64,000 nucleotides of DNA from Acidimicrobiales bacterium mtb01 (lineage in GTDB: Bacteria > Actinomycetota > Acidimicrobiia > Acidimicrobiales > Ilumatobacteraceae), in contig NBNI01000007.1 of NCBI GenBank assembly GCA_004379135.1, positions 545,501 to 609,500 on the forward strand, in the 5' to 3' direction. Shown here piece after piece: positions 29,477-57,071 of this stretch; the first letter of the stretch is position 1, and every line of letters begins with the position of its first letter. Below the pieces are notes generated by a model, which saw only the letters and a program-made list of their open reading frames with translations, was not told the DNA's origin and did no database searches. The position numbers were made by a program, and so were the translations under genes.

Positions 29477-31204
29477 TCAACAGGAAGCGAGCGACTCGAT
29501 CGGTTCGGCCAGAGCCGCCGGTCCGCCGAAGATGGCCAGGCTGTCGACTCCGAGTCGGGCGATCTGCGAGCGAACCGTGCCAGGCACGCAGTTCGACGGC
29601 ACGAGCATCAGCGGCGACACGGGATCGAGCGACGAGAACGGAACGGCCGCCAACGCATCGGGGAAGTTCGCCGCCGTGGCCAGGGCCGCCCACTTGGAGA
29701 TTGACAGTCCCTCCCACACCGCCGCCGAGCGATCCGAGACGTCGGCGGCGTCGATGGGCAGGACGTTGGCGATGGCCTTCAGGCTCGTGACGAGGGAGGC
29801 CGAGAAGGTTGCCGGAGGGCCGACCGTACGAATGGTCGAGGGCGCCAGCGAGGCGATCAGCTGACGCGTCGCCTCGGGCAGGGGCGCGAGTCCATCCACC
29901 AGCACGAAGGGCCGCCCGTACACCGCGGCCGCCGTGGACGCGATGAGCGGATCGGCGAAGTCGCGTCCGCTGGCCACCCACACGACCGGACTCGTGCGAC
30001 CGACCCAGGCGGTCTGGGTGAACTGTCGCGCGGTGTCGTAGCGGTCGATCCCTCCGACGCGGATCACTTCGCCCGTGACGACGGATCGGAGTTGATCGAA
30101 CACGGCCGCCGACACGGCCGCGGTTCCTCCGGCCACGTACACCTTGCTCGGCGCCAACCGCTGCAATTCGAGCCGCGTGCTGGACGGCACGCCGTTGGCG
30201 TCGACCAGGAGCACCGGCGCGCCGAAGCGCGACGCCGCGGCACCGGCGGCCAAGGCATCGGGGAACTTGGCACCGGTGGCGATGAACACCTCGTCGGTCG
30301 TGCGCCAATCGGCCGACACCGCGGCCGCGGTCTCGTACCGATCGGCACCGAAGATACGCGTCACCTGCAGGCCGCCCGTGATGGCCGAACCTCCGCCGAG
30401 TTGCAGACCGGTCACCGATCTCATCCAGGCCAATCCGGACGGTACCCAGGCCGACACCGAATGTCCGTTGCACCCGACCGGGCCATAACTCGTGAGGCCC
30501 ACGACTCGGTAACGCCCGTCGGTTCCGAGCGCCACGACCGGACCCCCGGAGTCACCGTTGCACGCGAAAGTGGCCGGTGCGATGGCGCACAACGCGGTCG
30601 ACGAGTCGTACACGTTGCCGAGCGACAAATCGAGAGTGGCGCACTCGGAGTCGGCCACCACCGACAGGTTTCCGCTCTGCAGGGTCGCGCTCACCGCGCC
30701 GCCGGCGGTGGTGCGCCCCCAGCCGAGCACGGTGACCGGAGCACCGGTACGCCAGGCCCAGGTGTCGTCGTACGACGCGACACTCGGAATCGACGCGGCG
30801 TCGATCGGCGCGGGCGCGTCCAGTTGATACAAGCCGAAGTCGTAGCGGATCGACAGGCTGGTGATCGAGAAGTACGGGTGCGATCGCCCGGACGCCCCGC
30901 CGCGCGAAACGAGCGACGACACGGCGGTCGAACCGGAGAAGATCTCGGCCCGACCCGTCGCGCTCACGCAGTGGCCGGCCGTCGCGACCCATTGCGGAGA
31001 GATGAAGACGCCCGTGCACAGCGATCCGTCATCGCCGAGAATTCGCGCGACCACCGGCGCCCACAGTCCGTCGGCCAACGATCCACCGACGACATACGGT
31101 TGAACGGGGGTCGGATCGTGATCAACCTCGGCCGCAACAGCGACCCAACCGAAGAGCAGCTGAATGGCTGCGAGGAGGGCGAGAACTCGCCGGAAACGAA
31201 TCAC
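29477..31204 (-). CDS. secreted trypsin-like serine protease with three cell-wall-binding (CWB2) repeats
   Basis: This is an exported chymotrypsin-fold protease. The signal peptide (RFRR, then LALLAAIQLLFGWVAVAA) spans residues 1-25. The catalytic triad is His in WVATAGHCVS, Asp in RYDFGLYQLD and Ser in CNGDSGGPVVA. From about residue 285 there are three CWB2 repeats, each with RxxGxDRYxTA- or FPDALAA-type motifs, which in Gram-positives hold proteins on the cell surface. I place the start at GTG 31204, the base after the CCA encoded by tRNA-Leu. It gives an ideal signal peptide and 575 residues; the longer frame runs into the tRNA gene. The transcript is probably released by tRNA 3' processing. 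Confidence 0.85.
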   Translation of the reverse strand: MIRFRRVLALLAAIQLLFGWVAVAAEVDHDPTPVQPYVVGGSLADGLWAPVVARILGDDGSLCTGVFISPQWVATAGHCVSATGRAEIFSGSTAVSSLVSRGGASGRSHPYFSITSLSIRYDFGLYQLDAPAPIDAASIPSVASYDDTWAWRTGAPVTVLGWGRTTAGGAVSATLQSGNLSVVADSECATLDLSLGNVYDSSTALCAIAPATFACNGDSGGPVVALGTDGRYRVVGLTSYGPVGCNGHSVSAWVPSGLAWMRSVTGLQLGGGSAITGGLQVTRIFGADRYETAAAVSADWRTTDEVFIATGAKFPDALAAGAAASRFGAPVLLVDANGVPSSTRLELQRLAPSKVYVAGGTAAVSAAVFDQLRSVVTGEVIRVGGIDRYDTARQFTQTAWVGRTSPVVWVASGRDFADPLIASTAAAVYGRPFVLVDGLAPLPEATRQLIASLAPSTIRTVGPPATFSASLVTSLKAIANVLPIDAADVSDRSAAVWEGLSISKWAALATAANFPDALAAVPFSSLDPVSPLMLVPSNCVPGTVRSQIARLGVDSLAIFGGPAALAEPIESLASC

Positions 31205-31291
31205 TGGTGTCGAAGGGGGGACTTGAACCCCCACGATCTTACGATCACTAGCCCCTCAAGCTAGCGCGTCTGCCTATTCCGCCACTTCGAC
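31205..31291 (-). tRNA. tRNA-Leu (anticodon GAG) with encoded CCA
   Basis: This is a class II tRNA of 84 nt plus encoded CCA (31205-31207). The acceptor stem GTCGAAG pairs with CTTCGAC. The anticodon stem CTAGC/GCTAG encloses TTGAGGG, giving anticodon GAG (leucine CUC/CUU codons). The long variable arm TGATCGTAAGATCGT has a hairpin stem, and the T arm is GGGGG-TTCAAGT-CCCCC. A TATCGT -10 box lies 11 nt upstream. The 3' CCA touches the GTG start of the protease gene. Confidence 0.96.
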
Positions 31292-31302
31292 GTGGAATGA
31301 GA

Positions 31303-31308
31303 ACGATA
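31303..31308 (-). promoter_or_regulatory. -10 box for tRNA-Leu (and probably the protease)
   Basis: TATCGT on the minus strand ends 11 nt before the mature tRNA 5' end. It lies between the secG stop and the tRNA. Confidence 0.4.
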
Positions 31309-31581: not shown

Positions 31582-32556
31582 TCAGTCGGGAAAGTGGCAG
31601 GCCACGGGGTGCCCCTGCCCACGATCGACCAGGGCTGGTTCCTCGACCGCGCAGTGGTCCTGGGCCTTCGGACAACGGGTCCGGAAGCGGCAACCCGAAG
31701 GAGGATCGATCGGGCTCGGCACATCGCCCTCGAGCATGATCCGCCGCCGACCTCGCTCGACACCCGGATCGGGCACCGGAATGGCCGACAACAGGGCCCG
31801 GGTGTACGGATGCGACGCTCGTTCGTACAGGGTTTCAGCGGTGGCGACTTCGACCAACTTGCCGAGATACATCACGGCCACGTTGTGCGACACGTGCCGA
31901 ACGACCGAGAGGTCGTGGGCGATGAACACGTAGGCAAGGCCGAGTTGGTCCTGCAGGTCGGCCAACAGGTTCACGACTCCGGCCTGGATGCTGACGTCGA
32001 GCGCCGACACCGGTTCGTCGAGGACCAGGAGTTTCGGGTTGGACGCGAGTGCTCGCGCGATTCCGATGCGCTGGCGTTGACCACCGCTGAACTCGTGCGG
32101 GAACCGCCGCGAGTGATCGGGCGACAAGCCGACCAGTTCGAGCAACTCCTTCACACGGGCTCGATGATCACCGGGAATCCTCTGCACTTCGAGAGGCTCG
32201 GCGATCGAAGTTCCGACGGTGAGTCGAGGATCGAGGGATGCGTACGGATCCTGGAAGACGATCTGCATGTCGCGTCGCAATTCGCGCAGCCGCTCGGCGC
32301 GCATCCCGACCAGTTCTTCTCCCTGGAAGCGAACCGACCCGGCCGTGGGTTCGATCAGGCGAAGGATGCAGCGGCCGACGGTCGTCTTGCCCGAACCGGA
32401 CTCCCCGACCAGACCCAAGGTCTCGCCCGGACGGACCGAGAACGAGACGTTGGAAACGGCTTGAACCGTGTTCTTGTAGGCGCGCACTCCACGAGCGGTC
32501 TTGACCGTGAAGTGCTTCACGAGGCCGTCGACGGCGAGAATCGGCTCGACGGTCAT
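31582..32556 (-). CDS. oppF: oligopeptide ABC transporter ATP-binding protein OppF
   Basis: This is the second ATPase of a peptide/nickel-type (PepT) importer. It has Walker [16 protein letters not shown] near residue 53, signature [16 protein letters not shown] near 160, Walker [15 protein letters not shown] near 180 and the switch His in [12 protein letters not shown]. The family C-terminal oligopeptide-binding tail [21 protein letters not shown] carries the Cys pattern of OppD/OppF. It has 324 residues. ATG at 32556 overlaps the oppD stop by 4 nt. Confidence 0.92.
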
Positions 32557-33530
32557 GGCCCCACCGATCGCAGTTCGTCGGCCCGCAGGCACGCCGACTC
32601 CAGATCACCCACAACACGGAGCGTTGGAACCTCGAGCGAACATCGATCGATCGCGTGCGGACACCGAACCCGGAACGCACAACCAGAGGGGGGTTCGATC
32701 ATGTTGGGAGGCGAACCTGGGATCGGGACGAGTCGATCGCGGCCGACGCTCGGAAGCGATCGAAGAAGACCCTGCGTGTACGGATGCGAGGGGTGGTCGT
32801 AGAGCGCGGCCACCGGACCCCGTTCGACGACGCGTCCGGCGTACATGCCCTGCACTCGATCGGCCACGCGGGCAACCACCCCGAGATCGTGGGTGATGAG
32901 GACGATGGCCGCCTGACGTTCGGACTGGATCTTCTGGAGGATTTCGAGGATCTGGGCCTGGACGGTCACGTCGAGGGCCGTCGTCGGCTCGTCGGCGATC
33001 AGGACGTCGGGGTCGTTGGCGATCGCCATGGCGATCATCACACGCTGACGCATGCCGCCCGAGAACTCGTGCGGATATTGACGAGCCCGCTCCCGCGGTT
33101 GCGGGATTCCGACGTCGTTCAGCAGCTCGATGGCGCGCTCCATGGCCGCCGCCTTGCTCATCGACTGATGGGCCCGGATCATCTCCACGATCTGGTGACC
33201 GATGCGGTGGGTCGGGTTCAGCGCCGACAGCGGATCCTGGAAGATCATGGCCACCTTGCGACCACGAACTTCACGCAGCACCTGGCGCGGCGCTCCGACC
33301 AACTCGGTGCCGTTGACAGTGGCCGAACCGGAGATGCGCGCACCTTTGGGCAACAGACCCATGAGCCCGAGGAAGGTCACCGACTTGCCCGATCCGGATT
33401 CGCCGACCACTCCGACGATCTCGCCCGCCCGCACGTCGAGGTCGATTCCCCGAACGGCCTGCACGTCGCCGAAAAGCGTGGGGAACGTGACCCGAAAATC
33501 TCGCAACGAGAGGACGACTTCGTTGGTCAT
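32553..33530 (-). CDS. oppD: oligopeptide ABC transporter ATP-binding protein OppD
   Basis: This is the first ATPase of the peptide importer, 325 residues. Walker A is [14 protein letters not shown], the ABC signature is [16 protein letters not shown] and Walker B is [14 protein letters not shown]. The switch is [15 protein letters not shown], and the C-terminal Cys-containing tail is [20 protein letters not shown] start at ATG 33530, which overlaps the oppC stop by one base (TGATG). The longer upstream frame only shadows oppC. Confidence 0.92.
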
Positions 33531-34486
33531 CAGCGGTTTCCGTCCAACTTCGGATCGGTCGCGTCGCGCAGGCCGTCGCCCACGAAATTCACGCACAGCG
33601 ACACCAGGATCAGGATCACGCACGGGAAGACGACCAGCCACCAATACCCGGGCAAGAGGGCTCCCTTGGCACCTCCGACCAACTTGCCGAGCGAGGTGGC
33701 GCCGGCGCCCGGCTGGGGACCGTAACCGAAGAACCCGAGAGTCGCCTCGGCGATGATGTTGCCCGACACCGCGAAGGTGAGGGCCACGAGGATCGGACCA
33801 GCCGAGTTCGGCAGCAGGTGGCGAAGGACGATGCGCGTGTTGCTCGCGCCGAGGGCTCGGGCTGCTTCGACGAACTCGCGTTCCTTGAGTGCGAGAACCT
33901 GCCCGCGCATCAGACGAGCAACGCCCATCCAGCCGAACAGCACGAACAGGATCACCACGAATCGAATCGAGGTGGGATTGCCGACGATCGGTTTGAGCCA
34001 GGGAACGTTCGACATCACGCTCCGCAACACGAGCAATGTGACCAGGAAGGGGAAGGCGAGGAACAGGTCGGTGACCCGCATCAGCAGATCGTCGATCCAG
34101 CCGCCGCGCAATCCTGCCACCGCACCGATGGCCACACCGAGGATCGTTCCGAAGAAGGCCGAGGCCAAACCGATCAGGATCGACACCCGCAGTCCGTAGA
34201 TGAGGCGGCTGTAGAGGTCACGACCGATGTCGTCGGTACCCAGCCAGGCGATTCCGCGGGGACTCAGGAATGAATTCGGCTTCTCTGGGCTCGTCTTGAA
34301 GACGGCTTCATTGACTCCGTAACGCGCGGTGAAGGGGGCCAACAGGATGAACAGCACCATGATGCCGAGGATGATCAGAGAGATCAGCGCGGCTCGGTGC
34401 TTGACGAAGCGGCGAACCGCCATGCGCCGTGGCGACATGGACTCGGCTCGCAAGCCGACCGCGGAATCGACGGATTCTTCAGCCAA
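33530..34486 (-). CDS. oppC: oligopeptide ABC transporter permease OppC
   Basis: This is an inner-membrane permease of the PepT importer, 318 residues. An N-terminal helix ([19 protein letters not shown]) is followed by a periplasmic stretch with [23 protein letters not shown] and five more helices. The EAA loop that docks the ATPases reads [24 protein letters not shown]. The start is TTG at 34486, inside the oppB tail, with GAGGA six bases upstream. Overlap with oppB is 8 nt. Confidence 0.9.
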   Translation of the reverse strand: [318 protein letters not shown]

Positions 34487-56680: not shown

Positions 56681-56968
56681 TCAGCCGTGGGCCAGCTTTT
56701 CGAGCAACTGGTCCTGACGGGCCTCCAACTCCTGGATTCCGGCCGCCACCTGCTCGCGGTGGGTGCGCATGGCGTCGGCGTGGAGACGCGCCTCGCGATA
56801 CTCGACCGATGACCCGGGGGTCTCCGACACCAGGGCCCGCAACCCGAGATCGTCGGCTTCGTCGCTCAGATGGGCCAGCTGCTCGTCGACGATGCGGAGT
56901 TCCTCTCGCAACCGACGCAGCCGGTCGGACGTCTCACGAAGACGCCTCTCGATCATGCGCTGTCCCAT
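56681..56968 (-). CDS. small coiled-coil protein of unknown function
   Basis: This 95-residue, highly charged protein is predicted by eye to be almost entirely helical. Heptad-like patterns run through RLRETSDRLRRLREELRIVDEQLAHL and AAGIQELEARQDQLLEKLAHG, separated by a short loop (SETPGSSVEYREARL). No enzyme motif or membrane segment is seen. The ATG at 56968 has a TAGACT box 6 nt upstream, and the frame is intact. It lies between a tRNA and pdtaR on the same strand. I do not recognise the family. Confidence 0.7.
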   Translation of the reverse strand: MGQRMIERRLRETSDRLRRLREELRIVDEQLAHLSDEADDLGLRALVSETPGSSVEYREARLHADAMRTHREQVAAGIQELEARQDQLLEKLAHG

Positions 56969-56974
56969 GCGGGG

Positions 56975-56980
56975 AGTCTA
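56975..56980 (-). promoter_or_regulatory. -10 box of leaderless promoter for the coiled-coil gene
   Basis: TAGACT on the minus strand ends 6 nt before the ATG at 56968, downstream of the tRNA. Confidence 0.45.
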
Positions 56981-56995
56981 CGAAGATCTGTCGAG

Positions 56996-57071
56996 TGGTG
57001 CCCCGGGTGGGATTCGAACCCACACCGTACGGAGTTTGAAGCCGCTGCCTCTGCCGTTGGGCTACCGGGGC
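56996..57071 (-). tRNA. atypical class I tRNA, apparent anticodon CAA (Leu?), encoded CCA
   Basis: The 73-nt body plus CCA (56996-56998) has a perfect acceptor stem (GCCCCGG/CCGGGGC) and T arm (GTGGG-TTCGAAT-CCCAC). The D stem has three pairs. The anticodon stem GCGGC/TCCGT has four usable pairs (one G-U) and a C-U mismatch at 31-39, framing the loop TTCAAAC, so the anticodon is CAA. Leucine tRNAs normally have a long variable arm, but here it is only 5 nt. Shifting the loop by one gives TCA, but the stems then fit worse. Amino-acid identity is therefore uncertain. Confidence 0.8.

Follow-up and report, generated by a model that had tools for sequence, protein, structure and literature searches.

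A GTG start codon of a secreted protease gene directly adjoins the encoded CCA end of tRNA-Leu(GAG) in the 64,000-nucleotide stretch of Acidimicrobiales bacterium mtb01 DNA analysed here (hereafter, the window), and we consider it fairly probable that this is a bacterial form of 'tRNA punctuation', in which the protease gene would be transcribed from the tRNA promoter and a near-leaderless mRNA would be released when the tRNA 3' end is processed. Seen directly in the sequence are the geometry of the junction, the absence of a -10 box and of a Shine-Dalgarno (SD) sequence before the GTG, a -10-like box before the tRNA, the recurrence of the geometry, its alternation with leaderless-type promoters in relatives, and candidate enzyme genes. 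Read-through, the cleavage site, leaderless translation and spacer loss are parts of the model that we infer. In this model, the tRNA-Leu(GAG) promoter would drive a single transcript through the tRNA into the protease gene, and a tRNA 3' endonuclease (RNase Z-like, or the actinobacterial enzyme that cuts between the Cs) would cut just past the discriminator or within CCA. The CCA-adding enzyme would give the tRNA its CCA end back, and the downstream RNA, beginning CA-GUG or CCA-GUG, would be translated as a leaderless mRNA. Such junctions would arise by loss of the tRNA-gene spacer with its terminator or leaderless promoter, for which the tRNA 3' end could stand in. Taken singly, the protease junction is not conserved; it is of interest as one instance of an arrangement that recurs. 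For Acidimicrobiia and related actinobacteria as a whole, we lean slightly towards the view that tRNA 3' processing is a general, evolvable source of leaderless mRNAs, that tRNA ends and leaderless promoters interchange, and that CCA addition lets tRNA and start codon share A76.

The draft genome containing the window amounts to 2.56 Mb in seven contigs and is 97.7% complete. On its minus strand, secG (31571-31323; Pfam PF03840) is followed by tRNA-Leu(GAG) (31291-31205, called by ARAGORN) and then by the 575-codon protease gene (31204-29477). ARAGORN and the sequence agree with the original prediction in placing the encoded CCA at 31207-31205 and the GTG at 31204-31202, with no base between them; the junction reads ...CCTTCGACACCA followed directly by GTGATTCGTTTCCGG... 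on the minus strand. Copies of the tRNA that are 100% identical occur in several genomes of the same genus, and a secG-like end precedes it in many relatives, as judged by eye. Further 5' of secG, on the same strand, lie oligopeptide-type ABC transporter genes (31582-34486), among them one ATPase identified by Pfam, plus another ATPase and a permease recognised by eye. We rejected the idea that CCA followed by GTG is rare in itself: 5 of the 24 CCA-encoding tRNAs of this genome are followed by GTG, so the trinucleotide alone proves little.

The encoded protein (575 aa) has a Trypsin domain (PF00089) and three cell-wall-binding CWB2 stretches (CW_binding_2, PF04122). With a PF00089 match of 101.7 bits, compared with a gathering score of 20.6, and the catalytic motifs TAGHC, DFGL and GDSGGP found by eye, the protease is trypsin-like (S1). 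The residues that follow the GTG at 31204 resemble a Sec signal peptide by eye, in keeping with the original prediction that the signal peptide begins at this codon. The nearest homologue, from the same-genus genome G125, is 68% identical over query residues 37-275 and also starts with GTG. Both proteins carry Gly-Trp at residues 19-20, and the same count of 20 residues from the GTG to the end of this pair supports a start at 31204, which we accept from this comparison; the start chosen originally is thereby borne out.

Leaderless starts seem to be widely used in this genome. We took 743 candidate starts of 172 ORFs, defined by a simple rule rather than a gene caller, in 224 kb of the genome, and found TANNNT at 12 or 13 nt before the start 38 times (25 and 13), with 0-3 occurrences per offset at 6-11 and 17-39 nt. 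For SD-like 4-mers, there was only a weak excess before the candidate starts of the same 172 ORFs and 224 kb. The protease GTG has no TANNNT at 11-14 nt upstream, where the hexamers are CTTCGA, CCTTCG, CCCTTC and CCCCTT, and no SD-like 4-mer within the last 15 nt, consistent with the earlier claim that the junction leaves no room for a promoter or ribosome-binding site. A promoter-made leaderless mRNA is recognised by TANNNT 6-7 nt before the start, and this signal is absent from the protease junction. The tRNA itself is preceded by TATCGT (31303-31308, minus strand), 11 nt 5' of the gene, which we propose as its -10 box; among 30 copies of tRNA-Leu(GAG), a TANNNT box ends 8-15 nt before the tRNA in 28, and at 16 and 19 nt in the other two. 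Among the 28 copies for which the sequence sufficed, 13 have a hairpin with a T-rich tail 3' of the tRNA; it is absent in the window, in G125 and in another same-genus genome, G069. The -10-like box before the tRNA and the missing hairpin and T-rich tail after it point to the protease being read from the tRNA promoter, which is most likely its source of transcription, perhaps with help from secG. Sharing the tRNA promoter, more than the coupling to tRNA maturation suggested originally, may be what is important for protease expression.

A census of tRNA-abutting genes covered the 45 tRNAs of this genome and those of three single-contig genomes: G019 (45 tRNAs; another genus of the family), G298 (47; another family of the order) and G203 (45; another family of the class). 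A plausible gene begins 1-4 nt past the discriminator at 5 of the 45 tRNAs of this genome: tRNA-Leu(GAG) with the protease, Lys(TTT) with a crotonase (PF00378), Ser(GGA) with tadA (TadA NF008113, above cut-off), Phe with an acyltransferase 3 (PF01757), and Glu(CTC) with a 161-aa ORF that has no Pfam match and was kept on codon composition only. Two of the G019 tRNAs are abutted, by an NTP_transferase protein (PF00483), which we take to be GlmU-like, and by a 95-aa ORF, while one of the G203 tRNAs is abutted by an aldehyde dehydrogenase (PF00171). No supported junction was observed among the 47 tRNAs of G298. Five plausible genes at 1-4 nt here, together with the same spacing for other genes in relatives, look like more than chance. 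Seven abutting junctions were checked separately, and none has a -10 inside the tRNA; a G-rich SD-like 4-mer lies in the last 15 nt in three of the seven, namely those of the crotonase, the Glu ORF and the G019 95-aa ORF.

The line between keeping and dropping a census ORF was partly a judgement. The dropped candidates at 1-4 nt with no Pfam match are L318 and L339 (G019 Lys(TTT) and Leu(CAG)), L371 (G298 Tyr) and L065 (Thr(TGT) of this genome); L318 had passed the codon filter and was rejected as it looks like an antisense frame by eye. L320, the G019 Asn ORF, also passed the filter and was dropped, since it crosses a second tRNA and continues into a phage-integrase domain. Its frame has a GTG 14 nt after tRNA-Met, a possible case within the 6-16 nt gap described below, and six further ORFs in this genome, outside the three genes compared below, have a GTG as a candidate start 7-16 nt past the discriminator. 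It was also observed that an encoded CCA is followed by GT in 12 of the 24 CCA-encoding tRNAs of this genome (the five GTG cases included); the corresponding counts are 0 of 21 in G019, 0 of 24 in G298 and 2 of 18 in G203.

Three of these genes were compared across relatives at 110 loci (57 tadA, 22 glmU and 31 95-aa ORF), a non-random collection in which tadA and the 95-aa ORF are represented by their best matches, and glmU by chosen regions from 20 of the 74 matching genomes plus two census loci. A locus was called abutting when an ATG or GTG lay at -1 to 6 nt past the discriminator, and the script accepted no -10 inside the tRNA. By this definition 35 of the 110 loci abut: 24 of 57 for tadA (tRNA-Ser), 5 of 22 for glmU (tRNA-Gln) and 6 of 31 for the 95-aa ORF (tRNA-Leu(CAA)). 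Three of the last group (L440, L451 and L454) are ambiguous, since besides the GTG close to the tRNA they have a later ATG preceded by a leaderless -10; without them, 3 of 31 remain. The 32 unambiguous abutting starts all fall 1-5 nt past the discriminator, with none at 6-16 nt for these three genes; where a non-abutting locus has a tRNA within 400 nt, no in-frame ATG or GTG occurs until at least 17 nt past the tRNA. A strict -10 of their own was found in 3 of 35 abutting loci compared with 33 of 75 others (Fisher p = 1.6e-4, uncorrected for shared ancestry), a contrast in which the three ambiguous loci were counted as abutting and weigh against it. Taken by gene, it is significant for tadA only (p = 6e-4, compared with 1.0 for glmU and 0.16 for the 95-aa ORF). 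When TANNN[TC] was allowed, a -10 was present in 5 of 35 abutting loci and 43 of 75 others.

Abutting tadA loci occur in seven genera of this family as well as in two other families of the class. Abutment of glmU to tRNA-Gln was seen in genera g20, g17, g18 and g12, with one g20 genome, G038, being non-abutting; a glmU-like gene follows tRNA-Gln(TTG) at L096, L337, L407, L416, L417 and L422, at 2-3 nt past the discriminator in five of these loci. The glmU-like gene of this genome is 124 nt from tRNA-Gln(TTG), with a TATAAC box. For the 95-aa ORF, which has no Pfam match and was kept for its conservation in 90 of 101 genomes, a comparison case is offered by the window itself. Here the ORF (56681-56968, minus strand) lies 3' of the second tRNA of the window, tRNA-Leu(CAA) (56996-57071, minus strand, by ARAGORN), in the arrangement TAGACT-N6-ATG, with the leaderless-type -10 box TAGACT at 56975-56980 on the same strand and the ATG 30 nt past the discriminator. 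Elsewhere, the ORF starts one base past the discriminator and has no -10, with ATG in G019 and G038 and GTG in G002. For all three genes, relatives alternate between putative leaderless-type promoters and tRNA abutment, and the adjacency is recurrent; the protease junction is single-genome.

The position of the cut decides what the mRNA would look like. The original prediction had proposed cleavage exactly after CCA, releasing an mRNA that begins with the start codon. The release of a leaderless mRNA by tRNA maturation holds up as a plausible model, but a cut before A76, leaving a leader of 2-3 nt (CA-GUG or CCA-GUG), is probably likelier than one after CCA with its zero-nt leader. The cut before A76 is favoured because in 15 of the 24 abutting tadA loci the A of CCA is also the first base of the ATG (CCATG) and would be lost from the start codon by a cut after CCA; starts one base past the discriminator without an encoded CCA demand the same position. 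A cut past the discriminator or between the Cs would leave CC-AUG or C-AUG at tadA, and the CCA-adding enzyme can restore the tRNA. Cleavage exactly after CCA also disagrees with two dRNA-seq reports, in which most of 12 CCA-encoding tRNAs of S. coelicolor (PMC4681348) and some of those of P. acnes (PMC3848588) are processed between the Cs of CCA. Other CCA-encoding tRNAs of P. acnes are described there as cut a few nt downstream of CCA (PMC3848588), which here would remove the start codon. In the same report, no obvious tRNase Z is noted for P. acnes and the authors leave the cleaving enzyme open, and 29% of its leaderless mRNAs begin with GUG, so a GUG at or near the 5' end would suffice for the protease (PMC3848588). 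The present genome encodes an RNase Z-like protein (NCBIfam ribonuclease Z NF000806, 320.4 bits, below the cut-off of 363; TIGR02651 is also below its cut-off) and a CCA-adding-type domain (PolyA_pol, PF01743). Within the tRNA-Leu(GAG) family, the bases past the discriminator vary between CCA, CGC, CTC, CGA and CAC, so CCA addition must be available.

The best of the alternatives, although an unlikely one, is that ribosomes use an unprocessed tRNA-protease (or secG-tRNA-protease) RNA as the protease message, with the folded tRNA as 5' leader, so that maturation competes with the mRNA instead of making it. The minimum-energy fold of the fusion, which retains the acceptor, anticodon, variable and T arms, and the same-strand secG just 5' of the tRNA would both suit such a transcript. 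However, the GTG would then be used with no SD-like sequence upstream, the clustering of tadA, glmU and 95-aa ORF starts at 1-5 nt with none at 6-16 nt is unexpected if the tRNA stayed attached, and a precursor so close to a tRNA 3' end should be cleaved fast.

Homologues of the protease describe how the junction may have come about. In the family search, 23 of 200 genomes had a match, most of these being remote trypsin relatives; within the genus, 6 of 24 genomes had one, including this genome and G184 (only 29% identical). None of the four clear same-genus homologues shows the junction: G125, G069 and G196 have a spacer, and G135 ends at a contig edge before the start. We therefore rejected conservation of the protease junction, which was found in one genome only; of the original suggestion to look for it in relatives, what stands is the same geometry with other genes. 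G125 has the same tRNA, then 66 nt after CCA, then GTG, with TAGCGT six bases 5' of it; in G069 the protease ATG lies 81 nt past the discriminator, with TACGTT six bases 5' (both boxes by eye); and in G196 the protease is several hundred bases from the tRNA, behind a terminator-like hairpin. A spacer between tRNA and protease looks like the usual state, which this genome would have lost. GTGA occurs in G125 both directly after CCA and at the start codon, and a deletion between two such repeats would yield a junction of the kind seen here.

The same comparison raises the question of whether a recent deletion created the junction and silenced the protease, or whether it is a functionless accident at species level or an error of assembly, which we also judge unlikely. 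Its occurrence in one genome only, its absence from the three readable same-genus homologues and the draft state of the genome (7 contigs) agree with this, but the 575-codon frame is intact with its catalytic motifs retained and the junction is mid-contig (C1, 1.3 Mb). Other genes, tadA among them, abut tRNAs in several genera, so that abutment is compatible with gene retention. A promoter within the tRNA gene, starting a protease mRNA with a short SD-less leader, is less probable again. TAAGAT in the variable arm fits TANNNT by eye, yet it begins 37 nt before the GTG, so the mRNA would not be leaderless and would have no SD; moreover, the tRNA is 100% identical in relatives that have the protease elsewhere or in which it was not found, and tRNA function explains the hexamer. 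That translation truly starts at 31234, at an in-frame GTG within the T arm of the tRNA, is very improbable even with the reading frame open there, given that the T arm and acceptor would read MGVQVPPSTP, that unprocessed tRNA would be needed, and that the G125 homologue, lacking these residues, starts elsewhere.

The preferred reading, tRNA punctuation, can be set beside several known systems. In mitochondria, tRNA excision sets the 5' ends of mRNAs, start codons lie at or next to tRNA ends, and translation is leaderless with no separate promoter. The protease junction is similar in having its start codon at the tRNA end and no promoter of its own, and in the proposed model also in a 5' end set by tRNA excision and in leaderless translation. 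It differs in belonging to a bacterium with free-standing promoters, in which a minority of genes would be involved, in a CCA that can be gene-encoded and overlapping with the start codon, and in that cleavage is a proposed step. In E. coli tRNA-mRNA operons such as secG-leuU and tRNA-tufB, a tRNA and a coding gene share one transcript, and the downstream genes have a leader and an SD. Our model likewise puts tRNA and coding gene in one transcript, with secG beside tRNA-Leu(GAG), whereas the protease GTG has no SD and would have a leader of only 2-3 nt. Promoter-made leaderless mRNAs of Actinobacteria are described in PMC3848588, PMC4681348 and PMC4633059 as having a TANNNT -10, an RTG at or near the 5' end and no SD, and those of mycobacteria are argued to stem from transcription rather than processing (PMC4633059). 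In relatives the protease resembles this type, as do many loci of glmU and the 95-aa ORF; the protease junction, with no -10 at 6-7 nt, does not, and its 5' end would come from processing. Cleavage between the Cs would here give a product beginning two bases before the GTG, and no link to making an mRNA 5' end is drawn in the excerpts of PMC3848588 and PMC4681348. Endonuclease-made leaderless mRNAs are known from E. coli MazF, mentioned in PMC3848588; MazF shares this feature with the protease model and differs in being a stress toxin with other cut sites and no tRNA end. Among the titles and abstract openings searched in PMC, we found no report of bacterial leaderless mRNAs made by tRNA cleavage.

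If correct, the model would bring mitochondrial-style punctuation to free-living bacteria in which leaderless translation is easy, and the expression of ordinary genes, such as those for a tRNA deaminase, GlmU and a protease, would depend on tRNA promoters and on tRNA processing. A gene could then gain expression through loss of its spacer to a tRNA. The model predicts mRNA 5' ends to the base, and would give gene finders a rule for these genomes, namely that the final base of a tRNA may also belong to a start codon.

An example of such sharing in this genome is L099 (G000:C4 near 95350), where the tadA ATG shares the A of the CCA of tRNA-Ser(GGA). A pattern scan of contigs for the CCATG junction found at least 119 stretches. 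Among the 80 loci listed, 22 have a tadA match near the pattern, with tadA in frame with CCATG in 20 of them and out of frame in L202 and L241. These 22 listed loci are titled Actinobacteria, Actinomycetota, Acidimicrobiia (including Ilumatobacter and Ferrithrix) or Bifidobacterium breve. The last title belongs to MAGs at L176, L206 and L212, which carry an acidimicrobial-like tRNA-Ser-tadA junction (L176 by eye, cut by a contig end), and is probably wrong. We also observed ORFs other than tadA, of 308 and 393 aa, starting from the CCATG of tRNA-Ser in a Patescibacteria MAG (L221) and an actinobacterial MAG (L199), respectively, and the arrangement may reach beyond Actinobacteria.
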